Below, one piece after another: positions 11,925-25,586 of a stretch of 25,586 nucleotides of DNA. The translations under genes were made by a program, and so were the position numbers. Below the pieces are notes generated by a model. It did no database searches and was not told where the DNA came from. It saw only the letters and a program-made list of their open reading frames with translations. Source of the stretch: an uncultured Eubacteriales bacterium (lineage in GTDB: Bacteria; Bacillota; Clostridia; Christensenellales; Aristaeellaceae); assembly GCA_900540045.1 (NCBI GenBank), contig UQEF01000038.1, positions 1-25,586 of the forward strand. Direction: 5' to 3'. Numbering within the stretch: the stretch's first letter is position 1; each line of letters starts with the position of its first letter.

Positions 11925-13076
11925 ATGGCCAAGAGGACGCCTTCGGGCAAGTTCCGCGGGAAGGTGACCATCGGCTACGACCCGGACGGCAAGCCGATCT
12001 ACAAGTATGTGACGGCGCCGACCCGCCGGGAGCTGGAAAACGTCAAGGAAGCCGTGCGGGAGCACTACATCTTCGGCAGGGCGATTCCCCGGGATCAGCC
12101 GTTTTACGAATACGCCGGGCAATGGTACAGGGTCAAGAAGGAGCCGTTCATCTCCAACGCCAGCCGCTCCTATTACAAGACGTGCTTCGTCAAACACCTT
12201 CTGCCGCAGTTCGGCATGCAGCATATGAAGGCCATCAGCGCGGCGCAGATCCAGGAATTCGTGAGCGGCTTTGCCGGAGCCAGCAAGTCCCAGATCAACA
12301 ACGTCATCGGGACCCTGAAGGCGATTTTCGCTTCGGCCTACGCGGAAGGGGTGATCGAGCGCGATCCCACGGTCGCGCTCATCCGCCCCAAAGCTTCAAA
12401 GGGGACGAGGCGCAGGGCGCTGACGCCGGAGGAAACCCGGCGCGTGCTGGAGACAATTCGAACCCACCCGGAGGGGCTGTTTCTGGCGATTCTCTACTAT
12501 CTTGGCGTTCGCCGGGGCGAAGCGCTGGGGCTCAAGTGGGGCGACTTCGACTTTGCGGCCGACCAGGTGCACATCCTCCGGGACATCGACTTCACCGGCT
12601 CCACTTCTTCGGAGGGCACGCTCAAGACCGCCGCCGCAGACCGCTTCATTCCCGTCCCGGCAGCGCTCCGTGAGATGCTTCTACCAAAGCGGGAATCAGC
12701 GGATGCTTACGTGTTCCACACGCCGTCGGGTGCGCCGCTTCCGCAGGCCAGCTACAAGCGCATGTGGTCGCGGCTGATGATGGCCTGCGGGTGCGTGACA
12801 TGGCGGGAGATCAAGCCGGGCACCTCCCGCCCGGACGACATCCTTAAGCAGGTCAAGCCCACGCTGACCCCGCACTATTTCCGGCACAACTACGTGACAC
12901 TGCTCTACGAGAGTGGCGTCGACCCGCTGATCGCCATGAAGATTGTGGGCCACACCGACTACCAGACCACCGCGAACATCTATACCCACCTTAAGGAGGA
13001 GACGCTGCGCAGGGCTTCGGTCAACATGGAGAAGGTGTTCGTGGAGAGGGAGAAGGGGGAAGGTGAGGGGGTGTGA
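11925..13076 (+). CDS. int: Tyrosine recombinase / phage integrase
   Basis: This 383-residue site-specific recombinase probably integrates and excises the prophage. It has an N-terminal arm-binding region (GKFRGKVTIGYDPDGKPIYK), a SAM-like core-binding domain (about 58-155) and a catalytic domain (about 165-370). All expected catalytic residues are present: R196 in LGVRRGEALGL, K234 in GTLKTAAADR, H317 and R320 in HYFRHNYVT, H343 in GHTDYQTT and Y353 in NIYTHL. The start at 11925 has AAGGAGGGGAGCC just upstream. Length is normal for Firmicute phage integrases. Position at the end of the phage genes indicates that the attachment site lies immediately to the right. Confidence 0.93.
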   Translation: MAKRTPSGKFRGKVTIGYDPDGKPIYKYVTAPTRRELENVKEAVREHYIFGRAIPRDQPFYEYAGQWYRVKKEPFISNASRSYYKTCFVKHLLPQFGMQHMKAISAAQIQEFVSGFAGASKSQINNVIGTLKAIFASAYAEGVIERDPTVALIRPKASKGTRRRALTPEETRRVLETIRTHPEGLFLAILYYLGVRRGEALGLKWGDFDFAADQVHILRDIDFTGSTSSEGTLKTAAADRFIPVPAALREMLLPKRESADAYVFHTPSGAPLPQASYKRMWSRLMMACGCVTWREIKPGTSRPDDILKQVKPTLTPHYFRHNYVTLLYESGVDPLIAMKIVGHTDYQTTANIYTHLKEETLRRASVNMEKVFVEREKGEGEGV

Positions 13077-13132
13077 CGGAAAGAGGGGGAGTGACGGGAT
13101 AGGGAGAGCGGCTGCTGCTTTGCCTCCGGTTT

Positions 13133-13310
13133 GCCGGCTTACGCCGTACTTTTTCGCATCTGTCGTGTGGGACCGGCAGGACTCCATGTTTTGTGGGATA
13201 TGCTTTATGAGGCTCGGGCTCCTTTCCGGGTCGTTGCCGAAAAGCAACGATGACGGATGGGGGTTCGGGCCTTTTATTTTTGCGGTTCAATATGGATGGT
13301 AGCACTACAA
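13133..13310 (-). mobile_element. Relic of an IS481/IS3-like transposase 5' end (copy A)
   Basis: On the - strand an ATG at 13187 opens a frame with DAKKYGVSRQT. This is a decayed version of the first helix-turn-helix of IS481/IS3-type transposases, which usually begin MKYRQS..YA.KYGVS. The same block occurs again at about 13476-13690 with scattered shared words such as CTTACGCCGTACT, GAGCTCCTTTCC-like and CAATATG.AT.GTAGC. Only the 5' tip and the upstream hairpin remain, so it is inactive. Similarity is patchy and ends are approximate. Confidence 0.5.
13211..13281 (+). terminator. Long hairpin with T-tract in relic copy A; likely terminator after the integrase
   Basis: GGCTCG (13211-13216) pairs with CGGGCC (13266-13271), and an inner stem TCGTTGC (13231-13237) pairs with GCAACGA (13244-13250). 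TTTTATTTTT (13272-13281) follows. It is about 135 bases beyond the integrase stop codon and would end rightward prophage transcription. Confidence 0.65.
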
Positions 13311-13475
13311 GACTTGCGCGCCATATGATACCCTAAATTATCGGCAATTATATCTATCAATAGTATAATTATAACATACAGAATTAAGCATGGAAGGAAC
13401 AAAATATTTTTTAAAGTTTTTTAAGTCAATAGCTAATTGATAAAGAATAGAGCTACTACATTGCCGAACATGGCT
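13311..13475. other. AT-rich spacer, no gene seen
   Basis: Between the two transposase relics the DNA is strongly AT-rich, with several TATAAT-like words and many A and T runs. The only frames are very short and lack ribosome binding sites. The change from GC-rich to AT-rich DNA near 13,310 may mark the true prophage/host boundary, but no attachment core repeat can be shown from one side. Confidence 0.5.
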
Positions 13476-13690
13476 TTAAAGACTGTGAACATTTAAGTAG
13501 TTTCGGATAGCCCGACTTACGCCGTACTTCTGAGCATATGTGAGCAGGGATTGCCGGTATTTCATGTCCTACATTATACTTTTTGTGAGACTTGAGCTCC
13601 TTTCCTAGTTGTCATGCAACTCAACTATACCAGGGCGCCAGGTCTCTCCCTTTTTTTACTGCCCAATATGTATTGTAGCTCTATACTCAT
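13476..13690 (-). mobile_element. Relic of an IS481/IS3-like transposase 5' end (copy B)
   Basis: On the - strand an ATG at 13565 starts MKYRQSLLTYAQKYGVSRAI, followed by RNYLNVHSL and a stop at 13476-13478. The first 20 residues match the start of IS481/IS3-like transposases with their KYGVSRA helix-turn-helix. The remaining several hundred residues of the protein are gone. GGAAAGGAG lies upstream of the start on the - strand. The block is a diverged direct copy of the one at 13133-13310 and keeps the same upstream hairpin. Confidence 0.55.
13587..13657 (+). terminator. Hairpin with T-tract in relic copy B
   Basis: GAGAC (13587-13591) pairs with GTCTC (13642-13646), and an inner AGTTG (13607-13611) pairs with CAACT (13617-13621). 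A run of seven T residues (13651-13657) follows. It corresponds in position to the hairpin of copy A but with different sequence, so the structure has been kept. It insulates the defence operon from rightward transcription out of the prophage. Confidence 0.55.
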
Positions 13691-13695
13691 TAAAA

Positions 13696-13744
13696 TTGAG
13701 ATTCTCAACTTCTCATTGTGAATTTGCCTCATGCATGGTATAAT
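13696..13744 (+). promoter_or_regulatory. Defence-operon promoter with two dyad operator candidates
   Basis: TTGTGA (13716-13721) and a perfect TATAAT (13739-13744) are 17 bases apart, upstream of the XRE gene. Two 13-base dyads lie at its upstream edge. TTGAGATTCTCAA (13696-13708) is a perfect 6-1-6 palindrome. TTCTCATTGTGAA (13710-13722) is one with a single mismatched pair, and it covers the -35 box. They start 14 bases apart, near the helical repeat times 1.3. The arrangement suggests repression by the XRE protein encoded immediately downstream. Confidence 0.65.
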
Positions 13745-13781
13745 TCTTTTAATCATTTTTCCGGCTGTGGAGGTGTTCTCT

Positions 13782-14012
13782 GTGGCGATTTGCTATAAAA
13801 AGCTTTGGAAATTGTTAATCGACCGCGATATGCAAAAAAAGGACCTTCGTCTTGCCGCTGGACTAAGCACAAATGTTATCGCAAAGCTTGGTAAAAATCA
13901 GAATGTTTCAACCGAAGTGCTGGGGAAAATCTGCAAAACGTTGAATTGCGAAATTACCGACATTATGGAATTTGTAGACGAAGAACCGATGCAAATTAAC
14001 GATGACACTTAA
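13782..14012 (+). CDS. XRE-family regulator heading the defence operon
   Basis: The 76-residue protein is a single Cro/C1-type helix-turn-helix of the HTH_26-like kind: KLLIDRDMQKKDLRLAAGLS, then TNVIAKLGKNQNVSTEVLGK, CKTLNCEITDIMEFV. GTG 13782 is selected because GGAGGT (13769-13774) lies 7 bases upstream and the product then starts like family members. An in-frame ATG at 13731 would lie upstream of the -10 box. It ends 17 bases before the helicase gene, so it is the first gene of the operon and probably its autorepressor. Repressors of this type commonly head large defence operons and keep them quiet. Confidence 0.85.
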   Translation: MAICYKKLWKLLIDRDMQKKDLRLAAGLSTNVIAKLGKNQNVSTEVLGKICKTLNCEITDIMEFVDEEPMQINDDT

Positions 14013-14029
14013 GAAGGCTGGTGATCCAC

Positions 14030-17000
14030 GTGGCAAAGTTAGAAGATCTCTCTGTAGGTAGCGTCGTCAAAGGCCTACTTTCAGAAGAAGCGATTACCGT
14101 CGTATCCACCAAATGGTACGGGTCTGATAGCGTGGAAGTATTTTACAAAACCCATCAGGGAAAAACCGGCTCGCAGATCCTTTTTCGTGATACCGAACCT
14201 TCGTTAGCTGTGCTCGAGAAGAGTCTCCCTTGGAGCTTTGATGTCCCTGGTGAAAAGCTGCGCTTGATTTCAGAAGCATACCGTATCCATCTGGCTCACC
14301 TGTTTGACCCTTACTTGGCTGTACACACCTCAGCCATTGAACCTCTTCCGCATCAGATATCAGCTGTATACGAGGAAATGTTGCCTCGTTTGCCATTGAG
14401 ATATGTTTTGGCGGATGATCCCGGCGCTGGTAAAACGATCATGACGGGTCTACTCATCAAGGAACTTGTCATCCGCGGTGATCTCAAACGCTGCCTCATC
14501 GTCTCGCCAGGCAATTTGGCCGAACAGTGGCAGGATGAGCTCTTTTCCAAGTTCCATTTGCGCTTTGAAATTCTTACTAATGATCGCTTGGAATCCGCTG
14601 TAACCGGAAATATCTTCACAGAAGTCAACTATTGCATTGCCAGGCTGGATAAGCTATCTCGCAATACAGAATTGCAGGAAAAATTGAAGGTTACAGATTG
14701 GGACTTGATCGTGTGTGATGAGGCCCACAAAATGTCAGCAACCATGTGGGGCGGCGAAATCAAGTACACAAAACGTTATCAGCTGGGCCGTCTGCTGTCG
14801 AGCATTACACGTCATTTCCTCCTGTTGACCGCGACTCCGCACAATGGTAAAGAAGAAGATTTTCAGCTCTTTATGTCGCTGGTCGATCCGGATCGCTTTG
14901 AAGGGGCTTGCCGTACCAGCAATCAATCCATTGACGTATCCGATGTCATGCGGAGATTGGTCAAAGAGGACCTCCTGAAATTCGATGGGACCCCTCTATT
15001 TCCTGAGCGCATAGCTTATACGGTCAATTATGACCTTTCTCCGATGGAAGCGCAACTTTACACCAATGTCACCACCTATGTACAGGAAGAGTTTAATCGC
15101 GCAGATAAGCTGGATGGCACGCATCGCTCTTCTGTCGGGTTTGCTTTGACCATTCTGCAAAGACGCCTTGCTTCTTCTCCAGAGGCCATCTATCAGTCAT
15201 TGCACCGCCGGCGGGAGCGTCTGGAGACTCGTCTGGCAGAAGAAAAGCTGGGAAAGCGTGCCCAGGATTTTCCTTGGCAATTTGATCTTCCTGAGGACCC
15301 GGATGACCTTGACGATCTGCCCTCCGATGAGCTTGAAGCCAAAGAAGAAACCGTTGCTGATCAGGCTTCTGCGGCTACAACGATTTCTGAACTGGAAGCT
15401 GAGATCGCCATACTCCGTAGACTTGAGGCGATGGCCAATCAGGTGCGCAATAGCGGAAAAGACAGAAAGTGGGATGAGCTGTCCTCAATTCTTCAGGATA
15501 ACGAGTTGATGAAGTCTACGGATGGAACCCCTGAAAAACTCATCATCTTCACGGAGCATCGCGACACATTGAACTATCTGGCAAACAAGATCCGCACACT
15601 TTTTGGCCGAGAAGAAATTGTCGCAACCATCCACGGCGGCATGCTGCGCGACGAGCGGCGAAAAGTGGAGATGTTATTCAAGCAGGACAAGGATGTGCGC
15701 ATTCTGATTGCCACAGACGCTGCGGGCGAGGGCATCAACCTGCAACGCGCGCACCTGATGGTCAACTATGACCTTCCATGGAACCCGAACCGTCTGGAGC
15801 AGCGCTTCGGCCGCATTCATCGTATCGGTCAGACGGAGGTCTGCCATCTGTGGAATATGGTATCCAAGGAAACCCGAGAAGGCGCCGTTTACCAGCGTCT
15901 GTTTGAGAAACTTGAGCAAGAGCGCAACGCCCTGGGCGGTAAAGTTTTCGACATTCTCGGCAAGGTGTCATTTGACAACAGAAGCCTGCGCGAATTGCTC
16001 ATCGAAGCGGTGCGCTATGGCAACAGGCCGGAAACCCGCGCCAAGCTCTATCAGGTGGTCGATCGCTCTTTGGATACAAAGGCGCTGCGCAAGCTGCTTG
16101 CTGAAAGGGCCCTGACGGAGGACACCATGGATGTCCATCGCGTCATGGCGATTCGTGAAGAGATGGAACGCATGGAAGCGCACAAGCTGCAACCGCACTT
16201 CATCGAAGCCTTCTTCATGGAGGCGTTTCGCGCTCTGGGCGGAACGATACGCAGCCGGGAACCCGGACGGTATGAGATCATCAACGTGCCCTATAAGGTG
16301 CGCTCCCGCGACCAGCTCATCGGTTTCGGCGTGCCTGTAGCCTCTAAATATGAGCGCGTCTGCTTTGACAAGCAGTTTTGCAGCGTGCCGGGTAGCCCCA
16401 TCGCCGATCAGATCTGTCCGGGCCATCCCCTGCTTGAAGCGGTCATCGATCTCATGCGCGAGCAGAATGCCGATGTGCTCAAGCGAGGTTCCGTGTTGAT
16501 TGATGAAAATGACCCGAGCGAGAATGCACGGCTTCTGTTCTATATTGAGGATGCCATTCAAGATGGTATCACACTCCCCAACGGAACGCGCCGCATCATT
16601 AGCAAGCAGCTTCAGTTTGTTGAAATGGATGACGCTGGCCAAGCCAAAAATGCCGGTTATGCACCTTATCTGGATTACCGACCTGCAACCGAGGAAGAAG
16701 CCGCAGCCGTACTTCAATGTGCTAAGGGACAAGCGTGGCTCTCACAGAATATTGAAGAGCTGGCTGTGCACTATGCCATTGCAAACATCGTGCCCGTGCA
16801 CTATGGCGAGGTCAAAGCGCACAAGCAACAGATGGCAGACAAGATCGCAAAGGCAGTCAAAGAGCGACTTACCTGCGAAATTCAGTATTGGGATTTGCGG
16901 GCGGCCGATCTAAAGGAAAAGGAAGCCGCAGGCAAACCCAACGCAAAGTTGAATTCAATCAATGCGCAGCGCCGTGCAGATGACCTGCAGGCCAGAATGC

Positions 17001-17533
17001 AGCGCCGTCTTCACGAGCTGGAGTTGGAAAAGCAGGTATCTCCATGCTCACCTGTGATCATGGGCGGCGCCCTCATCATTCCGCTGGGGCTGCTCAATCG
17101 GCTCATGGGCCGCCCGAACACAGGCGCGCTCTTCGGCGCAGATCGTGCAGCCATTGAGACGGCTGCCATGAACGCGGTCATGCAGCGCGAAATCGAGCGA
17201 GGTTTCGTTCCCAGCGATGTGAGCCAGCAAAACGTTGGCTACGACATTGAGTCTGTCATTCCGCAGAGCCAGAGGCACGGCGGGCCTTGCCTCCGGTTTA
17301 TCGAGGTCAAAGGACGGCGCACAGGCTCCACCATCGTGACCGTAACACGCAACGAAATTCTGACGGCGCTCAATAAGCCTGATGAATTTATTCTCGCCAT
17401 CGTCGAGGTGGATGGCACACGGACGCGGATGATTTACTTGCACAACCCCTTCCGATCGCCTCCGGATCTGGGCGCATGCAGCGTCAATTACGAAATTGCC
17501 GATTTGATTCGAAATGGTCAAATCGAAGAGTGA
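14030..17533 (+). CDS. SNF2/DEAD-like helicase with C-terminal DUF3883 domain
   Basis: This 1167-residue protein (COG0553-like) is a superfamily 2 ATPase that should translocate on DNA. Visible motifs are Walker A GAGKT (132-136), DEAH (230-233), TATPHNGK (267-274), DAAGEGINLQ (563-572) and RFGRIHRIGQ (592-601). A family-specific N-terminus (1-105) ends in LAVHTSAIEPLPHQI. An acidic linker (about 415-450) precedes the second RecA lobe. The C-terminus carries DUF3883 with GYDIES and FIEVKG, where D1072, E1092 and K1094 fit a PD-(D/E)xK-like core. GTG 14030 is preferred because GGTGATC gives normal spacing. GTG 14021 is the alternative and would sit 3 bases from AGAAGG. The stop is 9 bases before the methylase, with its ribosome binding site over the stop codon. 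Homologous to the helicase of DUF1156/DUF499 defence arrays. Confidence 0.9.
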   Translation: MAKLEDLSVGSVVKGLLSEEAITVVSTKWYGSDSVEVFYKTHQGKTGSQILFRDTEPSLAVLEKSLPWSFDVPGEKLRLISEAYRIHLAHLFDPYLAVHTSAIEPLPHQISAVYEEMLPRLPLRYVLADDPGAGKTIMTGLLIKELVIRGDLKRCLIVSPGNLAEQWQDELFSKFHLRFEILTNDRLESAVTGNIFTEVNYCIARLDKLSRNTELQEKLKVTDWDLIVCDEAHKMSATMWGGEIKYTKRYQLGRLLSSITRHFLLLTATPHNGKEEDFQLFMSLVDPDRFEGACRTSNQSIDVSDVMRRLVKEDLLKFDGTPLFPERIAYTVNYDLSPMEAQLYTNVTTYVQEEFNRADKLDGTHRSSVGFALTILQRRLASSPEAIYQSLHRRRERLETRLAEEKLGKRAQDFPWQFDLPEDPDDLDDLPSDELEAKEETVADQASAATTISELEAEIAILRRLEAMANQVRNSGKDRKWDELSSILQDNELMKSTDGTPEKLIIFTEHRDTLNYLANKIRTLFGREEIVATIHGGMLRDERRKVEMLFKQDKDVRILIATDAAGEGINLQRAHLMVNYDLPWNPNRLEQRFGRIHRIGQTEVCHLWNMVSKETREGAVYQRLFEKLEQERNALGGKVFDILGKVSFDNRSLRELLIEAVRYGNRPETRAKLYQVVDRSLDTKALRKLLAERALTEDTMDVHRVMAIREEMERMEAHKLQPHFIEAFFMEAFRALGGTIRSREPGRYEIINVPYKVRSRDQLIGFGVPVASKYERVCFDKQFCSVPGSPIADQICPGHPLLEAVIDLMREQNADVLKRGSVLIDENDPSENARLLFYIEDAIQDGITLPNGTRRIISKQLQFVEMDDAGQAKNAGYAPYLDYRPATEEEAAAVLQCAKGQAWLSQNIEELAVHYAIANIVPVHYGEVKAHKQQMADKIAKAVKERLTCEIQYWDLRAADLKEKEAAGKPNAKLNSINAQRRADDLQARMQRRLHELELEKQVSPCSPVIMGGALIIPLGLLNRLMGRPNTGALFGADRAAIETAAMNAVMQREIERGFVPSDVSQQNVGYDIESVIPQSQRHGGPCLRFIEVKGRRTGSTIVTVTRNEILTALNKPDEFILAIVEVDGTRTRMIYLHNPFRSPPDLGACSVNYEIADLIRNGQIEE

Positions 17534-17542
17534 GGAAAATAT

Positions 17543-20317
17543 ATGAGTGTCAAGAAACTGATCGAAGTGGCCCTTCCCCTGGAGGCCATCAACGCAGAAT
17601 CCGCCCGCGAGAAGTCCATCCGCCACGGCCATCCCAGCACGTTGCACTTGTGGTGGGCGCGCCGGCCTTTGGCTACGGCACGCGCGGTCATCTGGTCTTC
17701 TTTGGTGGACGACCCCTCCAGCCACCCGGATCAGTTTCCCACGGAAGAGGCGCAGCAGCGGGAACGCGAGCGTCTGTTTGCCATCCTGACGAGGCTGGTC
17801 AAGTGGGAGAACAGCAATGATGAGGCCATCCTCGCGGAGACAAAGGCGGAGATCATGAAGTCCACCGGCGGAAATCCCCCGGCGCTGCTGGACCCCTTTG
17901 CCGGCGGCGGCGCCATTCCGCTGGAGGCGCAGCGCCTCGGGCTGGAGGCCCACGCTCACGACCTGAACCCCGTAGCCGTGATGATCAACAAGGCCATGAT
18001 TGAGATTCCGCCCAAATTTTCGGGCCAGGCGCCCGTCAACCCGGAAAGCCGCGCGCAAATAGGCTGCACGTCGAACTGGAAGGGGGCTGCGGGCCTGGCG
18101 GAAGACGTGCGTTACTACGGCGAGTGGATGAAGCAGGAGGCCTTCAAGCGCATCGGCCACCTGTATCCCAAGGTCCAGATTCCCAAGGAGCAGGGCGGCG
18201 GCGAAGCGACCGTCATCGCCTGGATTTGGGCGCGGACGGTGAAGTGCCCCAACCCGGCGTGCGGGTGCGAGATGCCGCTGGCAAGTAGCTTTGTGCTTTC
18301 CAAGAAAAAAGGAAAAGAGGCCTATATTGAAGCGGATTGCTATGGATCGGAGATCAAATATCATGTGCGACAGGACAAGGGCGGCGATAATTGCCCTAAA
18401 GTAGGCCAAGGCAAATTCAAGTGTATTCGTTGCAATGAGGGGATTCCCAAAGACTATCCCAAAGAAGAAGGAAAAGCCGGAAGAATGGGAAGGCAACTCC
18501 TTGCAATCGTAGCCGAGGGAAAGAACGGCCGATTGTACCTTTCCCCGGATTCGGAGCAAATTTCCGCGGCGGATTGTCCTATGCCAGATGAATACCCAAC
18601 AGGACGCTTGGCACCTCACTTTACTGGTGGTTCCTGCGTCCCCTATGGGCTTGATGAGTTCCATAAGCTCTTCACCACCCGCCAGCTGACCGCGCTGACC
18701 ACATTCAGTGCGTTGGTGGGCGAGGCGCAGAAGAAAGCCGAAGCCGATGCCGTGGCAGCCGGCATCTTCAACGACCATATTCCGCTTGCCGAAGGCGGCA
18801 CCGGCGCGCGCGCCTATAGCGAGGCGGTGGAAGTGTATTTGGCATTTGTGGTAGACAAAATGGCTAATTTAGGATCAACTATTGTTAGTTGGATGAACGA
18901 TCGTGGGGCTTTCCGAGAGACATTTGCTCGGCAAGCGATACCCATGGTTTGGGACTTCGCAGAAGCTAATCCGTTTTCCAATTCTGGTGGTAACATTAGC
19001 CAATATGTAGAAAGGATTTCTCGATGCATTGAATATATTCCCAAAACATCATTAAGTGGAATAGTCCGACAATTTGATGCCCAAAGTGATTGCAAGCTAC
19101 GAGAAATCATGGTTTCCACCGATCCGCCCTATTATGACAATATTGGCTATGCCGATCTCTCTGACTTCTTTTACGTCTGGATGCGGCAGGCTCTCAAGGA
19201 GACCTATCCCAAGCTCTTTCGAACCCTGCTGGTGCCCAAGACGGAAGAACTGGTGGCCACACCTTATCGCTTTGAGGGTAGCGTTGAAAAAGCACGCGAT
19301 TTCTTTGAAGATGGTATGTTCAACACCTGCTGTCAGCTCTATCAGTACGCCAGGGAAGATATCCCCGTCACTATCTATTACGCCTTCAAACAGAGCGAAA
19401 GCGATTCGGATGAAGAGGGCGAACGGACGGCTTCTACTGGCTGGGAGACCATGCTGTCCGCCATCATCCGCGCAGGCTTTGCCATCACGGGCACATGGCC
19501 CATGCGAACAGAAAGCCCTGGACGTTCCATTGCTCAAGGCACCAACGCCCTCGCGTCCAGCATCGTGCTGGTCTGCCGCAAGCGCCCGCAGGATGCGCGC
19601 AGCGTAACCCGCCGCGAGTTCATCAACGCCCTGCACCGGGAGATGCGCCCCGCGCTGACCAAGCTCCAGTCCGCCAACATCGCCCCGGTGGACCTGGCGC
19701 AGTCGGCCATTGGCCCGGGCATTGGCGTGTTTAGCCGCTACAAGAGCGTGCTGGAGAGCGACGGACAGCCCATGGGCGTGCGCGCAGCCCTGCAGATCAT
19801 CAACCAGGAGCTGGATTCCTTTTATAACGAGCAGGAGGGCGAGCTGGACCGGGAGAGCCGCTTCTGCGTGGAGCTCTTCAGCCAGTATGCCTTCAACAAC
19901 ATTAAATTTGGCGATGCAGATATACTGGCCCGCGCCAAGAACACCAGCGTGCAGGCGCTGGCGGAGCACGGCGTGATGCTGGCCGCCAAAGGACAGGTGC
20001 GTCTGCTAACCCGTGAGGAGATTCCCGAAAAGGTCGATGCTCATGAGGAATGCACCTGGCTGCTGACCCAGCAGCTCGCCCATGCCATGGAAACGGGTGG
20101 TGTAACGGCCTGTGCCACCATCGTCAAGGACATCTTCGGCAGCAACGCAGAGAATGCCAAGGCGCTGGCCTATCGCCTGTACACCATCTGCGAGCGCAAA
20201 AACTGGGCTCAGGAGGGCTTCGCCTATAACAACCTTGTCGTCGCCTGGCCGGACATTCAGTCTATGGCCGCACAAATGCAAGCCTCGCAGCCGCAGCAGC
20301 TGAGAATGGATCTGTAA
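17543..20317 (+). CDS. DUF1156 / Zn-ribbon adenine-type DNA methyltransferase (COG1743-like)
   Basis: The 924-residue enzyme probably methylates adenine (or N4-cytosine) to mark self DNA. The DUF1156 N-terminus is clear (IEVALPLEAINAESAREKSI, STLHLWWARRPL). S-adenosylmethionine motif I is LLDPFAGGGAIPLEA (115-129). Catalytic motif IV is DPPYYDN (527-533). About 400 residues lie between them, including cysteine clusters CPNPACGC (235-242) and CIRC (294-297) that fit a zinc ribbon and likely target recognition. Two parts of the gene, about 18,293-18,540 and 18,840-19,110, are much richer in A and T (about 35-50% GC) than the rest (60-78%). It has 9 bases to the helicase and 20 to the ATPase gene. 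All catalytic residues are present. Confidence 0.88.
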   Translation: MSVKKLIEVALPLEAINAESAREKSIRHGHPSTLHLWWARRPLATARAVIWSSLVDDPSSHPDQFPTEEAQQRERERLFAILTRLVKWENSNDEAILAETKAEIMKSTGGNPPALLDPFAGGGAIPLEAQRLGLEAHAHDLNPVAVMINKAMIEIPPKFSGQAPVNPESRAQIGCTSNWKGAAGLAEDVRYYGEWMKQEAFKRIGHLYPKVQIPKEQGGGEATVIAWIWARTVKCPNPACGCEMPLASSFVLSKKKGKEAYIEADCYGSEIKYHVRQDKGGDNCPKVGQGKFKCIRCNEGIPKDYPKEEGKAGRMGRQLLAIVAEGKNGRLYLSPDSEQISAADCPMPDEYPTGRLAPHFTGGSCVPYGLDEFHKLFTTRQLTALTTFSALVGEAQKKAEADAVAAGIFNDHIPLAEGGTGARAYSEAVEVYLAFVVDKMANLGSTIVSWMNDRGAFRETFARQAIPMVWDFAEANPFSNSGGNISQYVERISRCIEYIPKTSLSGIVRQFDAQSDCKLREIMVSTDPPYYDNIGYADLSDFFYVWMRQALKETYPKLFRTLLVPKTEELVATPYRFEGSVEKARDFFEDGMFNTCCQLYQYAREDIPVTIYYAFKQSESDSDEEGERTASTGWETMLSAIIRAGFAITGTWPMRTESPGRSIAQGTNALASSIVLVCRKRPQDARSVTRREFINALHREMRPALTKLQSANIAPVDLAQSAIGPGIGVFSRYKSVLESDGQPMGVRAALQIINQELDSFYNEQEGELDRESRFCVELFSQYAFNNIKFGDADILARAKNTSVQALAEHGVMLAAKGQVRLLTREEIPEKVDAHEECTWLLTQQLAHAMETGGVTACATIVKDIFGSNAENAKALAYRLYTICERKNWAQEGFAYNNLVVAWPDIQSMAAQMQASQPQQLRMDL

Positions 20318-20337
20318 GGAAAACGGAGGAAGAGCAT

Positions 20338-23300
20338 ATGTCAAACTACGAAATCATCGGTCAAGCGCTGGCTATCCTGCGCGAGTTGCTTGCCGACTAT
20401 ATCTTGCAGCAGCTTCAGACAGTCCCTGAATACAAGGTAAATGATGCCTGGTGGCAGCAAGGCGTGCTCGAAGCCGTTCACGATGAGCGTGACTTCGACC
20501 GACTTGCAGCGTTGACGGACTCTGGCGAGCGCCGGGATGCTCTGGATGTTCTCCTGTGCCTGAATCTGATGATCAGCCACTGGTCCAACCTGTTCAAGTA
20601 TCGCCTGCCAAATACGGCGCGCTCCTGGCTCAGTGAGATCCGCGAAGTCCGCAATGATTGGGCGCATTTCAAAGGAACTGATTTTACGGACAAGGAAACG
20701 GCCCGGGCGCTGGATACCATGTCCCTGCTCGTCGGGGCCATTGATGGCGAAGCACAGGAAGGAATTCAGAAGCTCTATCGCATGGTGGCCTATGGTTCGG
20801 AAATGGGGTCCACAGCCTCGAACTCGAATGGTTCAGATGCCGGAGCGGGCAGAAAATCTCTGGGCGTCATGCAAAGCACACCGGTCAAGGGCTTGCCCAG
20901 TTGGCGAAACGTCATCGAACCGCATCCCGATGTGGCACAGGGCCGCTACAAGAATGCTGAATTTGCAGCTGACCTTGCGCAGGTGGCGCGCGGCGAAGGC
21001 GCGTATGAGTACCGCGATCCGGTTGAGTTTTTCTCTCGCACCTACGTCACCGAGGGAATGAAGGGCCTGTTGGTACAGGCCATCCGCAGGGTGAGCGGTA
21101 AGGATGGCGAGCCAGTCATTCAGCTGAAAACCGCTTTCGGTGGCGGCAAGACCCACAGCATGCTGGCATTGTATCATCTGCTCCGTGGCCGCGCGCCGAT
21201 CAGCCGCACCCCCAACATCAAGAGCGTGATCGAGGCGGCAGAGGTCGATCGCCTGCCGGTGTGCCGCGTGGCCGTACTGGTGGGCACCGCCCTTGAGCCA
21301 GCCAAGAGCAAGCGGTTGCAAAATTTCCCCGGTATCACCATCAACACCCTGTGGGGAGAGATGGCCGCGCAGTTAGCGTTGGATGCGGGCAATCCCAAAC
21401 TATATGACCTCGTTAAAGAATCGGACAAGAAAGGCGTATCTCCGGGCAGCGAAACCCTCAAAAAACTGTTTGACGCCTGCGGGCCCTGTGTCATATTGAT
21501 CGATGAGTTGGTGGCCTATGCCAAGAAACTTTGGAAGGTAGACGGCTTGCCTGCCGGCTCCTTTGATAACCTGATATCCTTCATTCAGGAAATCACAGAA
21601 GCAGCCCGTGCAAGCCAAAACAGTCTGGTGGTGGCTTCCATTCCGGAATCCGCCATCGAGATCGGCGAAGAGGGCAGCGGCGGACAGCAGGCGCTTGCCG
21701 CTATTGAGCATACCTTCGGCCGAATGGAGGCCATCTGGAAACCTGTTGCCGCAGACGAAGGGTTTGAAATCGTCCGCCGCCGTCTATTCTTAAACTGCAA
21801 GGATGAAGCAGGCCGTGACGCTGTCTGCCAGGCGTTCAGCCAAATGTATCAGGAAAACAGCTCGGATTTTCCCGCCAATGTCAAGGAAGTCGATTATTTA
21901 CAGCGGATGCGTTCGTGCTATCCTATCCATCCGGAGGTCTTCGACCGCCTGTATGAGGACTGGGCAACCATTGAGCGCTTTCAAAAGACACGCGGTGTCC
22001 TCCGACTGATGGCTGCGGTTGTTCATAATCTGTGGATGAATCAAGACGGCAGCCTGCTGATCATGCCCGGTTCGTTGTCCTTAGATGTTTCCACCATCCG
22101 CGACGAATTGACGCGCCATGTCGGCGACAACTGGAACGCGATCGTCGATCATGAGGTGGATGGAAAGAACTCCATCCCCTATCAGAAGGATCAGGAAATT
22201 CCTCGTTTTGGGCACATCATGGCAGCCCGGCGCGTCGCGCGGACCATTATGCTGGGCAGCGCACCGAGCACCCGGCAGGATACCATCCGCGGTCTGGAGG
22301 CTTCCCGTATCCGTTTGGGGTGTGTGCAGCCCGGGGAAAACATTGCAACGTTCAACGATGCGCTGAGCACGCTGCAATCAGCGCTGACCTATTTGTATAG
22401 CAATCCATCAAATGATCGCTTCTGGTTTGATACCCGGCCTACATTGCGTAAAACTGCGGAAGACCGGGCGAGCCAGCGCTCCAATGAAGAAGTTGAGATG
22501 GAAATTGAGCGCCGCCTTCGTCAAAATCGTAAGGAGCGCCCGTTTGGCCGAATCCACATCTGTCCAGAAAGCTCTATGGATGTCAGCGATGAGCAGGATA
22601 TTGGCCTTGTCATTTTGAAATACCGCGACACCTATAAGCGCAACGAACCGGGCGACAATGCGATTCAGGCGGCTGAAAACATTCTCAATACGCGAGGCAT
22701 GTCACCCCGAATCTATAAGAATATGCTCGCGTTCATCGCTCCCGATCAAAACATGATGAGTGCCCTGCGCGAAGAGGTGAAGCGATTCCTCGCATGGACT
22801 TCCATCAAAGAAGACAGCGTTGATCTGAATCTTGACGAAGCGCAAAAGCGCGAGACGGACAATAATCTGGAGCGCAGCAACAAAATCGTCGAAGCGCGTA
22901 TTTTGGAAACCTACTGTCATTTGCTCGTGCCTTATATCGACCGGGAAGTGGATCTGAAAACCGTTATATGGGATGAGATCAACATTCGGGGTGGCAACGA
23001 TAATATCATCGTCAAGGCTGCCCGCAAAATGCAGCAAAATGAGCAACTGATCACACAGTGGGCGCCTGCTCTGCTGAATATGCAACTGGATAATCTGCTC
23101 TGGCAGGGTCACAATGAGATCAATGTCGGCGAGCTCTGGAAGATGCTGTGCACCTATTGCTACTTGCCGAGGCTGGCTTCATTCGACGTTTTGCAGACAT
23201 GCATTCAAAACGGAGTCAATTCTGAGGATTACTTTGCCTATGCTGACAGCGTTGTGGACGGCAAATATATTGCACTCAAGTATAACCAATATGTAGGTTT

Positions 23301-23712
23301 TGTGGATCGCTCTGGATTCCTGGTGAAACAGGTGGCTGCGCTCAAGCAAAAAGCAGCAGAAGTACAAACAAGGCAGGATCCAGCAACAAAGCCAGTTCTT
23401 CCACCGGATGGACAGGGATCGACGCCCATCGATATACCGCCGGTGCAGCCCACCGTCATGCCACCGCAACCACAGAACAGACACTTTACCATGACAGCTA
23501 CCCTGGATAATACCCGGGTTGTGAAAAATGTTGGGAGTCTGATGGACGAAGTCATCAATCATCTCATGCAAGTTGATGGTGCAAATGTCGAAATCAAATT
23601 GCTTGTCGAGGCGCATATGCCTGATGGAACACCAGTGAATATCGCACGAGCCATCAAAGAAAACTGTGCAACGCTGAAAGTGGATGATTTTGGTTTTGAT
23701 GAATTCGAGTAA
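20338..23712 (+). CDS. Swt1-type HEPN domain fused to DUF499 AAA+ ATPase (COG1483-like)
   Basis: The 1124-residue protein has an N-terminal Swt1-like HEPN domain (about 1-150) with an intact R-x4-H pair in EVRNDWAHF (R105, H110), the catalytic motif of HEPN ribonucleases. A low-complexity linker (156-172) leads to DUF499, which begins at about 185 (PSWRNVIEPHPDVAQGRYKN). Walker A is AFGGGKTHS (266-274) and Walker B is VILIDEL (385-391). A proline/glutamine-rich linker (about 1015-1045) precedes a conserved C-terminal domain ending ATLKVDDFGFDEFE. GGAGGAAGAG precedes ATG 20338. It is the third gene of the helicase/methylase operon. The ATPase probably gates the system, and the HEPN part may cleave RNA. 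Confidence 0.88.
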   Translation: MSNYEIIGQALAILRELLADYILQQLQTVPEYKVNDAWWQQGVLEAVHDERDFDRLAALTDSGERRDALDVLLCLNLMISHWSNLFKYRLPNTARSWLSEIREVRNDWAHFKGTDFTDKETARALDTMSLLVGAIDGEAQEGIQKLYRMVAYGSEMGSTASNSNGSDAGAGRKSLGVMQSTPVKGLPSWRNVIEPHPDVAQGRYKNAEFAADLAQVARGEGAYEYRDPVEFFSRTYVTEGMKGLLVQAIRRVSGKDGEPVIQLKTAFGGGKTHSMLALYHLLRGRAPISRTPNIKSVIEAAEVDRLPVCRVAVLVGTALEPAKSKRLQNFPGITINTLWGEMAAQLALDAGNPKLYDLVKESDKKGVSPGSETLKKLFDACGPCVILIDELVAYAKKLWKVDGLPAGSFDNLISFIQEITEAARASQNSLVVASIPESAIEIGEEGSGGQQALAAIEHTFGRMEAIWKPVAADEGFEIVRRRLFLNCKDEAGRDAVCQAFSQMYQENSSDFPANVKEVDYLQRMRSCYPIHPEVFDRLYEDWATIERFQKTRGVLRLMAAVVHNLWMNQDGSLLIMPGSLSLDVSTIRDELTRHVGDNWNAIVDHEVDGKNSIPYQKDQEIPRFGHIMAARRVARTIMLGSAPSTRQDTIRGLEASRIRLGCVQPGENIATFNDALSTLQSALTYLYSNPSNDRFWFDTRPTLRKTAEDRASQRSNEEVEMEIERRLRQNRKERPFGRIHICPESSMDVSDEQDIGLVILKYRDTYKRNEPGDNAIQAAENILNTRGMSPRIYKNMLAFIAPDQNMMSALREEVKRFLAWTSIKEDSVDLNLDEAQKRETDNNLERSNKIVEARILETYCHLLVPYIDREVDLKTVIWDEINIRGGNDNIIVKAARKMQQNEQLITQWAPALLNMQLDNLLWQGHNEINVGELWKMLCTYCYLPRLASFDVLQTCIQNGVNSEDYFAYADSVVDGKYIALKYNQYVGFVDRSGFLVKQVAALKQKAAEVQTRQDPATKPVLPPDGQGSTPIDIPPVQPTVMPPQPQNRHFTMTATLDNTRVVKNVGSLMDEVINHLMQVDGANVEIKLLVEAHMPDGTPVNIARAIKENCATLKVDDFGFDEFE

Positions 23713-23774
23713 ATATACCCGTTTGTGCAGTGAAGATTGCGTAAGTATTTTGCAGGAAAAGGGGGACGACAGCA

Positions 23775-24944
23775 ATGGGAAAAAGTATACCTGCAATCGT
23801 TACTCCTGAAGTTTTGAGCTGGGCGCGTGGGCTTGATAAAATTACAGTGGATGAGATAGCCAAGAAAATAAAGGTCGATACTGCTAAAGTATTAGCCTGG
23901 GAGGCTGGTAGCGAATACCCCACTTTGGCGCAAGCTAAAAACTTGGCCAAACAATATCGTGTTCCATTTGCCTATTTCTATTTACCTGATACGCCTAAAA
24001 AGACAAAAAGGCTAGAAAAGGTTGACTATAGGACATTCGGTAACTTGGACATTGGTGAAATGTCCCATGAGCTCAGATGGTTTCTTAGAGATATCGAAGA
24101 TCGCAGGGATACCATAATCGAATTATATGGTGAAATGCAAGTTGAGCCTACCGCCCTTACGCTAAATATTCCTGTTGGAACAACAGAAGAAGAGTTTGCT
24201 GATCAAATCAGATACTTTCTTTCCTTGAGTAATGAAGTACAGGTTAAATTTAGAAAACCAGAAGTAGCTTTGTCCTATTGCATTTCTAAGCTGGAGGAAA
24301 AAGATTTTCTTGTCTTTCAAGCAGCTAAAATCCAACCAGCGGAAATGAGAGGTTTATCCTTGGCATATGAGCTCTTTCCTGTTATTGCATTGAATAGGAA
24401 AGATGAGCCGAGCGCAAGACTATTTACTTTATTGCACGAATTAGTTCATATTCTATCTAGAACATCTGGGATTTGTAATAACATGAGTCTGGATGAAAAC
24501 CAGCGAGGCGGCTTAGAGCTTTTTTGTAATAAAATTGCCGGACTATCTTTAGTCCCTACGGATCAGCTGAGACAAAATAGAAATGTTCTCTTGATACAGC
24601 AGCATGGACTAGATGAGGGTTACATCAGTGCACTTGCAAGAGACTTTGCTGTAAGTCGTGAAGTCATTCTTCATAGGTTATGGGATATAAAGGTGATAAG
24701 CCGCAAGACATATTTTGAAATTCTAGACAGATATTCAGAGGAATATTTAGCTTATAAGAAGAGAAAAAAGACAGATGGATTTATACCGCCTGCTTTGGAT
24801 AAAGGAACTCAGGTTGGTAAGTTATATACAAAAACAGTTTTATCTGCGTATCATGCTGACAAGCTAACACCGAGAGAAACGAGCAATTATCTGTTAGGCC
24901 TGCGAGTTACGCAGTTTGGAGCTATCGAAAGGTGGTGCTACTGA
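23775..24944 (+). CDS. XRE-HTH + ImmA/IrrE metallopeptidase
   Basis: This 389-residue protein joins an N-terminal Cro/C1-like helix-turn-helix (ITVDEIAKKIKVDTAKVLAW, 23-42) to an ImmA/IrrE zinc peptidase with HELVH (221-225) and a likely third ligand E248 in LELFCNKIAG. A C-terminal region from about 335 is unassigned. ImmA/IrrE enzymes cleave regulators or act as antitoxins of PIN or other toxins. ATG 23775 follows AAAAGGGGGA, 62 bases after the DUF499 gene, and its stop overlaps the PIN gene start. Base composition is about 40% GC, clearly lower than the operon upstream, so it was probably acquired separately. It may be cotranscribed, as no good terminator lies between. Confidence 0.88.
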   Translation: MGKSIPAIVTPEVLSWARGLDKITVDEIAKKIKVDTAKVLAWEAGSEYPTLAQAKNLAKQYRVPFAYFYLPDTPKKTKRLEKVDYRTFGNLDIGEMSHELRWFLRDIEDRRDTIIELYGEMQVEPTALTLNIPVGTTEEEFADQIRYFLSLSNEVQVKFRKPEVALSYCISKLEEKDFLVFQAAKIQPAEMRGLSLAYELFPVIALNRKDEPSARLFTLLHELVHILSRTSGICNNMSLDENQRGGLELFCNKIAGLSLVPTDQLRQNRNVLLIQQHGLDEGYISALARDFAVSREVILHRLWDIKVISRKTYFEILDRYSEEYLAYKKRKKTDGFIPPALDKGTQVGKLYTKTVLSAYHADKLTPRETSNYLLGLRVTQFGAIERWCY

Positions 24945-25405
24945 TGGCAAAATATGTATTCGATAGCAATATATTTATTAACCTTCAACGGAGACAGCCT
25001 ATTGATGTTTTTCCTTCTCTCTGGGAAAAGATTGGCGAGCTAATGGATAATGGAACCATTATTTCTAGTAGAGAGGTCTACGATGAAATAATGATTGGTG
25101 GAGATGCGCTGGAAAAGTGGGCAAAGAAACGAAAAGAATGCTTTCTCCTACCGGATGTGCCGGTTCAGCAAGAAGTCCGTACAATTCTTTTAGCACACCG
25201 GGGATTAGTGGAAGGAGGAAAGAAGAAAAACTCTGCCGATCCCTTCGTGATAGCGCTTGCTAAGCAACAACGCTGTAAAGTGGTTACAGAAGAAGTGCCA
25301 ACCCATAACATGTCCTCACCTAAAATTCCAGATGTATGCAGCGCATATCATATTGAATGTGTTGACTTTATTGGCTTTGCAAGAGAAGAAAAATTTGCTT
25401 TCTAG
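24944..25405 (+). CDS. PIN-domain ribonuclease (DUF4411 family)
   Basis: The 153-residue protein has the acidic residues of PIN nucleases: D7 in YVFDSNIFI, E44 or E48 in SREVYDEI, D99 in SADPFVIALA, and the following VVTEE (113-117). These carboxylates hold the metal ions used to cut RNA. The start at 24944 overlaps the preceding stop (TGATG) and has AAAGGTGG (24928-24935) 8 bases upstream, so translation is coupled. An upstream in-frame ATG at 24932 lies inside that site. DUF4411 proteins are repeatedly found beside ImmA/IrrE-HTH proteins and behave as a toxin-antitoxin-like pair (toxin here). RNA target unknown. Confidence 0.85.
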   Translation: MAKYVFDSNIFINLQRRQPIDVFPSLWEKIGELMDNGTIISSREVYDEIMIGGDALEKWAKKRKECFLLPDVPVQQEVRTILLAHRGLVEGGKKKNSADPFVIALAKQQRCKVVTEEVPTHNMSSPKIPDVCSAYHIECVDFIGFAREEKFAF

Positions 25406-25463
25406 AGATTATTTAAACCCTAAGATTTAATCTGGAATTATAGAGCAAGTTATTCTATAATGC

Positions 25464-25485
25464 GATAAGGTCCCTTATCGGACCT
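25464..25485. repeat. Two overlapping, mutually exclusive short hairpins
   Basis: GATAAG (25464-25469) can pair with CTTATC (25474-25479), or AGGTCC (25468-25473) with GGACCT (25480-25485). Both are perfect 6-bp stems sharing bases, so only one can form at a time. It lies in the 3' untranslated region before the terminator and its role is unknown. Confidence 0.45.
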
Positions 25486-25499
25486 GTTGACAAAAAAGG

Positions 25500-25537
25500 A
25501 ATCGGAGCAGAAAGTGGAGGCTTTCAGCTCCGATTTT
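25500..25537 (+). terminator. Intrinsic terminator after the defence island
   Basis: AATCGGAGC (25500-25508) pairs with GCTCCGATT (25527-25535). After one A-A mismatch, GAAAG (25510-25514) pairs with CTTTC (25521-25525), closing the loop TGGAGG. TTTTC follows. This nearly perfect 14-bp stem lies 95 bases after the PIN gene and marks the end of the operon. Confidence 0.85.
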
Positions 25538-25553
25538 CAACATATGCGAGGTC

Positions 25554-25580
25554 AAAAGGATAGCCCTGACCATCCTTTTT
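25554..25580. terminator. Second, bidirectional terminator-like hairpin at the right edge
   Basis: AAAAGGAT (25554-25561) pairs with ATCCTTTT (25572-25579), with a T-rich stretch after it on the + strand and T residues on the - strand as well. It could end a leftward gene that starts beyond the window edge as well as act as a back-up for the defence operon. The evidence is the stem alone. Confidence 0.5.
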
Positions 25581-25586
25581 AGGTTT

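Follow-up and report, generated by a model that had tools for sequence, protein, structure and literature searches.

A HEPN-fused Hma operon, its small XRE regulator and an adjoining toxin-antitoxin pair of the VapBC52 type in a defence island next to a prophage

Six genes, all on the plus strand, lie within positions 13782-25405 of the window, which is the whole stretch of 25,586 nt analysed here. They encode a small regulator, a helicase, a methylase, an ATPase and an IrrE-PIN pair, and they raise the question of whether such a set makes up one defence system that acts as a whole, or several known modules that lie side by side. The first-pass annotation leaned towards the former, and regarded the combination as possibly undescribed. 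Its gene set and coordinates were recovered for all six genes, and their Pfam matches lie above the curated cut-offs, which indicates that they are not chance reading frames. With regard to novelty the answer is different. The stretch almost certainly comprises a complete HEPN-fused Hma (Type-1 BREX-related) operon, accompanied by a small XRE regulator, and behind it a toxin-antitoxin pair of the VapBC52 type that is independent of the operon. Taken as a whole it resembles the usual kind of defence island, here next to a prophage, and not a new system.

The three large genes and the named defence systems

The first of the three large genes (14021-17533) encodes HmaA, a SNF2-family helicase (Pfam SNF2 and Helicase_C) that ends in a PD-(D/E)xK-type nuclease domain, NOV_C (5.2e-20), which we take to be the former DUF3883. 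It is followed by HmaB (17543-20317), a DUF1156 DNA amino-methyltransferase (Pfam DUF1156, 3.9e-31) with the motif I DPFAGGG and the motif IV DPPY, and by HmaC (20338-23712), a DUF499 AAA+ ATPase (Pfam DUF499, 6.2e-34) with a Swt1-like HEPN domain at its N-terminus (HEPN_Swt1, 1.6e-23). The catalytic motifs of all three genes are intact at this locus. The earlier view holds in so far as this is a defence operon resembling a restriction-modification (RM) system, with an RNase motif in its HEPN domain and a nuclease domain of the DUF3883 type. The genes are packed as closely as previously claimed, with gaps of 9 nt between helicase and methylase and 20 nt between methylase and ATPase; the XRE gene precedes the helicase by 8 nt, HmaC is separated from the IrrE gene by 62 nt, and the IrrE and PIN reading frames share 1 nt.

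When compared to the PADLOC-DB models, the helicase matches HmaA with 1679.8 bits (residues 5-1167, model positions 2-1170 of 1176), the methylase HmaB with 1182.2 bits (residues 2-919, model positions 7-962 of 967) and the ATPase HmaC with 1045.4 bits (residues 186-1121, model positions 3-940 of 941). All members of Hma are hence present at full length, adjacent and in the order A-B-C, and the core triad is already known as a named and catalogued system, which refutes the suggestion that the set may be undescribed as a whole. The HmaC model begins downstream of the HEPN domain, and it may be for this reason that the domain looks like an addition. No NCBIfam model is passed by any of the three proteins, the best matches lying below their cut-offs: DrmD for the helicase (376 bits against 610), DUF1156_antiphage for the methylase (125 against 1000) and DUF499_antiphage for the ATPase (195 against 1200).

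The features of the triad that had been thought possibly new, including the HEPN and DUF3883 domains, are in print in accounts of Hma, of Type-1 BR and of the HEPN-DUF499/SNF2-DUF3883 arrangement. Hma was named by Payne et al. in 2021 as a putative defence system with 1,638 instances in 26 phyla (PMC8565338), and was reclassified by Rakesh & Krishnan in 2026 as Type-1 BREX-related, or Type-1 BR (PMC12839542). In the passages of the latter paper that describe Type-1 BR, the HEPN-fused form of the ATPase is reported in 1370 of 2446 Type-1 taxa and a helicase with a C-terminal PD-(D/E)XK nuclease in 79% of Type-1 taxa, and an N-terminal TUDOR on the helicase and a C-terminal RRM on the ATPase are named as features. 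The nuclease feature is present here, at the C-terminus of HmaA. The present locus shares with Hma/Type-1 BR the three full-length proteins, their order, the DUF1156 methylase, the SNF2 helicase-nuclease and the DUF499 ATPase with its N-terminal HEPN; no difference was found in the core, and what differs is the XRE gene upstream, which is optional elsewhere, and the unrelated toxin-antitoxin pair downstream. An earlier account of the same arrangement was given by Anantharaman et al. in 2013 (PMC3710099), where HEPN fused to a DUF499 AAA+ domain is described in an operon with RM parts and a SNF2 helicase fused to DUF3883; no difference from the present triad is seen in the parts of that paper concerned with this operon. 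Payne et al. (PMC8565338) label HmaB an m5C enzyme, against which the DPPY motif and the relevant passages of PMC12839542 indicate an amino-methyltransferase.

The pairing of a SNF2 helicase with a methylase is also shared with BREX and DISARM, and the first-pass annotation had considered the island distinct from both systems proper, a view that holds. PglZ, BrxA, BrxB, BrxL, DrmB and DrmC are all missing from the PADLOC matches listed for the six genes (for HmaA, 25 of 61 matches), and the likeness is one of the helicase core. BREX proper was rejected, as no PglZ is among the matches listed for Pfam and PADLOC and the distant resemblance of HmaC to BrxC amounts to just 16.8 bits (PADLOC). DISARM proper was rejected as well, the similarity of HmaA to the PADLOC models DrmD and DrmA being restricted to the helicase core; its best match in that system is DrmD with 412 bits, as compared with 1680 for the HmaA model. 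Type-2 BR was a further candidate, but among the six genes of the island Pfam shows neither the HKD nuclease at the helicase N-terminus nor the DUF3780 gene. A PADLOC PLD_Helicase match on HmaA is limited to residues 455-640.

Relatives of the triad, their variants and the XRE gene

To place the operon among its relatives, 116 loci with HmaC relatives were fetched. Of these, 80 lie in species genomes, where 101 relatives had been listed, and 36 on viral contigs, the last of which are distant (23-28% identity). The triad recurs among them: in all 47 loci where the hma genes are fully covered, they lie on one strand in the order A-B-C. This count omits the other 69 loci, which are cut by the contig or the fetched stretch, or in which one of the genes has diverged, is missing or lies elsewhere; outside the 47, HmaB lies downstream of HmaC in L059 and in the distant L108, L110 and L115, and in the latter three a helicase match follows further on after the HmaC-HmaB pair. 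In twelve of the complete loci (L005, L006, L010, L025, L030, L046, L051, L065, L086, L092, L096 and L102), an additional 0.5-2.3 kb separates hmaB from one of its neighbours, hmaA or hmaC.

The catalytic motifs are widely kept, as counted for each motif only in those of the 116 loci that cover it. The Walker A and B motifs of HmaC are found in 116/116 loci, the helicase DEAH in 55/55, and the D and ExK of NOV_C in 61/61 each. The Rx4H motif of HEPN is kept in 88 of 90 covering loci (exceptions L033 and L050), motif I of HmaB in 73 of 77 (exceptions L033, L108, L110 and L115) and its DPPY-type motif IV in 82 of 84, the two exceptions, L029 and L068, being second HmaB copies. HEPN is usual among close HmaC relatives: HEPN_Swt1 was found in 119 of the best 120 HmaC homologs listed, out of 7471 with E<=0.001 among 7997 candidates scored.

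A second HmaB-like gene lies between hmaB and hmaC in 7 of the 47 complete loci (L027, L036, L037, L039, L043, L047 and L082), for example at 7752-9989 in L027 and 7770-9989 in L036, and is also seen in the cut loci L029, L068 and L038. In L027, a protein with weak PADLOC matches of the Argonaute type (37-41 bits) is encoded inside the Hma operon at 6343-7779, between the two HmaB-like genes. The second copies are 30-39% identical to HmaB of the window. In the seven complete loci the first copy carries DPPY, and the second carries ELPY in five cases, EIPY in L037 and TLPY in L082, where one stop falls in the aligned stretch; among the cut loci, L029 has ELPY and L068 EFPT at this position, and L038 falls short of the motif. 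The L036 copy scores as HmaB in PADLOC (569 bits). Scoring of 7995 candidates gave 1050 homologs of this copy. An alignment of the best 120 shows E as the first motif residue in every case and ELPY in 114, figures that describe a conserved subfamily and not its share of all HmaB, since the list was drawn by likeness to an ELPY protein. In these 120 proteins, the C-terminal region, equivalent to HmaB 770-924, is nearly absent (a mean of 9 residues aligned).

The form with a second HmaB is rare in the genomes sampled. The family of G018 was sampled with 300 genomes and that of G020 with 299, and the ELPY copy was found only in G018 and G020 themselves; a third match, G616 (a 915-residue frame, 38%), has a length that suggests an ordinary HmaB. 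The second protein is possibly an inactive partner methylase, which would make these loci a variant form of Hma, and the arrangement may be comparable to the METTL3/METTL14 pair. A term search of the text of PMC12839542 found no mention of a second HmaB copy. Since it lacks the catalytic aspartate, the second HmaB may indicate a paired active/inactive methylase form of Hma, which is worth separate study.

Upstream of the triad, a small XRE/Cro-type regulator (13782-14012; Pfam HTH_26, 2e-18) was identified. Its GTG start at 13782, as proposed in the earlier annotation, is preceded by GGAGGTG and is favoured over the longest-ORF start at 13731. By tblastn against the 116 loci, relatives of this protein were found in six, immediately upstream of HmaA: in L001, with 78% identity; in L004, L036, L037 and L070, where they are less alike; and in L012, with a 26-residue piece. 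A scan of upstream proteins (43 loci, 39 of them with an ORF, to which L001 and the window were added for this count) revealed HTH_26 in 7 of 41, including those of L001 and the window itself. The XRE gene is thus an optional regulator of Hma operons. As for the suggestion that the large genes stand behind one promoter, a promoter-like site with an extended -10 that matches the consensus (TTGTGA-17-TATAAT, with TG before the -10) lies at 13716-13744 on the plus strand, upstream of the XRE gene; sites of this type are, however, no commoner than in shuffled sequences (14 in 13000-25586 against 11.1 +/- 3.2 expected), and a single promoter is a plausible reading.

The IrrE-PIN pair

Downstream of HmaC lie the genes of a VapB52-like antitoxin, composed of an HTH and an IrrE/M78 peptidase domain (23775-24944; Pfam Peptidase_M78, 7e-13), and a VapC52-like toxin, a DUF4411 PIN RNase (24944-25405; Pfam DUF4411, 4.5e-39). 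Both match a single solved complex over most of their length, IrrE aligning with PDB 9vzy_A (7.5e-33, 117 bits, residues 10-380 of 389) and PIN with 9vzy_D (3.4e-22, residues 7-154 of 157). The HExxH and FR motifs of 9vzy_A are one residue off the VapB52 positions given in the passages of PMC13273310 on this protein, which suggests that the entry is VapBC52. As described there, the antitoxin cleaves itself when triggered by ssDNA, the toxin cleaves tRNA, and overexpression of the toxin protects against phage. The present pair shares with VapBC52 the adjacent HTH-IrrE peptidase antitoxin and DUF4411 PIN toxin, the HExxH motif (HELVH in the window) and a Cys at +9; it differs in having YR where VapB52 has FR and in coming from an unrelated organism, and the likeness is drawn here from sequence. 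Related arrangements are also on record, as COG2856-Xre fusions beside PIN toxins were described in 2009 (PMC2701414) and DUF4411 is placed among VapBC toxin domains in the relevant part of PMC8790059. The pair is a toxin-antitoxin of the VapBC52 type, an already described kind, and a different module from Hma. Assignment of IrrE to other PADLOC families was rejected, as the partial RmrA matches (<=49.4 bits) and others such as capP (24.7 bits) are weaker and shorter than the match to 9vzy (117 bits). For PIN there is no PADLOC match, and a search of viral contigs, which reaches close relatives only, found none of either protein.

The alternative is that XRE, HmaABC, IrrE and PIN form one functional composite, in which ssDNA produced by HmaA is sensed by IrrE, which then sets the PIN RNase free as a second tier built into the system. 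The common strand, the gap of only 62 nt between HmaC and IrrE and the self-cleavage of VapB52 with ssDNA, as reported in PMC13273310, would all suit such a coupling, and no terminator-like site was found in this gap, which makes co-transcription of the pair possible. The distribution of the genes speaks against it. A tblastn search of the 116 loci with HmaC relatives, many of which are cut by contig ends, revealed neither IrrE nor PIN in any of them. Among the families assigned by Pfam to 129 downstream ORFs in 38 loci, neither IrrE nor DUF4411 is among the 25 commonest of 179, a list that reaches down to families with 2 members and could therefore hide one IrrE and one DUF4411 besides those of the window. 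In 36 Hma-bearing genomes, which stand behind part of the 80 genome loci, DUF4411 was found once, as a 43-position fragment with two internal stops.

Conversely, the pair occurs where Hma was not detected. Of 297 genomes sampled in the order of G001, 13 gave IrrE matches, several of which are weak and confined to the HTH, and a PIN gene lies just downstream of IrrE in 4 of 15 fetched IrrE loci (L124, L125, L127 and L129). HmaA at E<=1e-30 is absent from all four genomes with these related pairs; among the 13 IrrE genomes searched, one without a PIN neighbour has a helicase 31% identical to HmaA. The composition differs too, GC3 being 0.34-0.35 in IrrE-PIN against 0.59-0.69 in hmaABC, with 0.44 in the XRE gene. 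Lack of co-occurrence and differing composition led us to reject the five-gene composite put forward in the first-pass annotation, the set not recurring beyond this locus in the loci examined, and the single composite is highly unlikely. Were the two-tier coupling true, for which the chances are equally slim, ssDNA from an attack by HmaA would free the PIN RNase and lead to an abortive response on top of the HEPN backup. The best reading of IrrE-PIN is that of a module independent of Hma which shares its island.

The prophage neighbourhood and a proposed role in defence

A prophage takes up the left half of the window, where genes for tail proteins and lysis and one for an integrase (11925-13076) were identified. 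It resembles the Christensenellales phages PV036454 (24% of the query) and PV036419 (16%) at 68-69% identity, which suggests a host in the Christensenellales (Clostridia). Between genes of its tail module, a DarTG toxin-antitoxin of low GC is carried as cargo at 710-2481 (DarT 133 bits, DarG 303 bits, PADLOC), and the flanking genes on both sides match PV036419. No tRNA gene is present in the window.

This neighbourhood allows a reading in which the Hma island is itself cargo of the prophage and its expression in the lysogen keeps other phages out, which would alter the carriage of the island and not its function. The tail and lysis genes and the integrase lie directly to the left of the island, and DarTG sits among genes of the same prophage. 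Against this, a direct-repeat search of the window revealed no convincing att repeats bracketing the island, the end of the prophage was not located, and the GC3 of hmaABC (0.59-0.69) is below that of the phage genes (0.79-0.86). Carriage by the prophage is thus possible but the less likely case. In the interval from the integrase to the XRE gene, a stretch of ~180 nt is present twice, at 13133-13310 and 13511-13683; the copies have diverged but share an exact 14-mer (at 13138 and 13516), and the motif that bears it was found in none of the fetched loci. These copies may be remnants of gene starts or an attachment or integration site.

From the identities of the genes and their intact motifs, a scheme for the action of Hma and IrrE-PIN can be proposed, which as a whole we hold to be moderately likely. 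Among PDB sequences no match to HmaB or to the HmaC profile was found, so that the mechanism leans on what is known of the protein families. HmaB, as a DPPY amino-methyltransferase, would mark the DNA of the cell itself, and the AAA+ ATPase HmaC would load or assemble on DNA or scan it. HmaA would then move along unmarked DNA, which its nuclease domain of the DUF3883 type would cut. RNA is probably cut by the HEPN domain on HmaC, as a second-line fallback that stops growth, and the XRE protein would regulate the operon. Separately, the IrrE-type antitoxin probably frees the PIN RNase after self-cleavage triggered by ssDNA, and hence by damage, as reported for VapBC52. The part of the scheme that concerns Hma is close to the proposal for Type-1 BR in PMC12839542, which is likewise RM-like with HEPN as a last resort.

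A methylase also allows the operon to be read as a housekeeping or epigenetic methylation system with no part in defence, the defensive role being itself predicted from sequence. The helicase-nuclease and the HEPN RNase with their conserved catalytic motifs speak against such a system, and antiphage activity of the helicase-nuclease is stated as known in PMC12839542, which cites an experimental study of a Halomonas helicase-nuclease. The presence of Hma is patchy as well: among 297 genomes sampled from the order of G001, HmaB at E<=1e-30 occurs in G001 alone, which had been picked for carrying Hma, a distribution that fits horizontal spread. A housekeeping function is therefore very improbable, and defence is the reading we keep.

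To conclude, no new system name is needed for this island. Its apparently intact HEPN-fused Hma operon provides a further test case for a system that is widespread and has been little tested.
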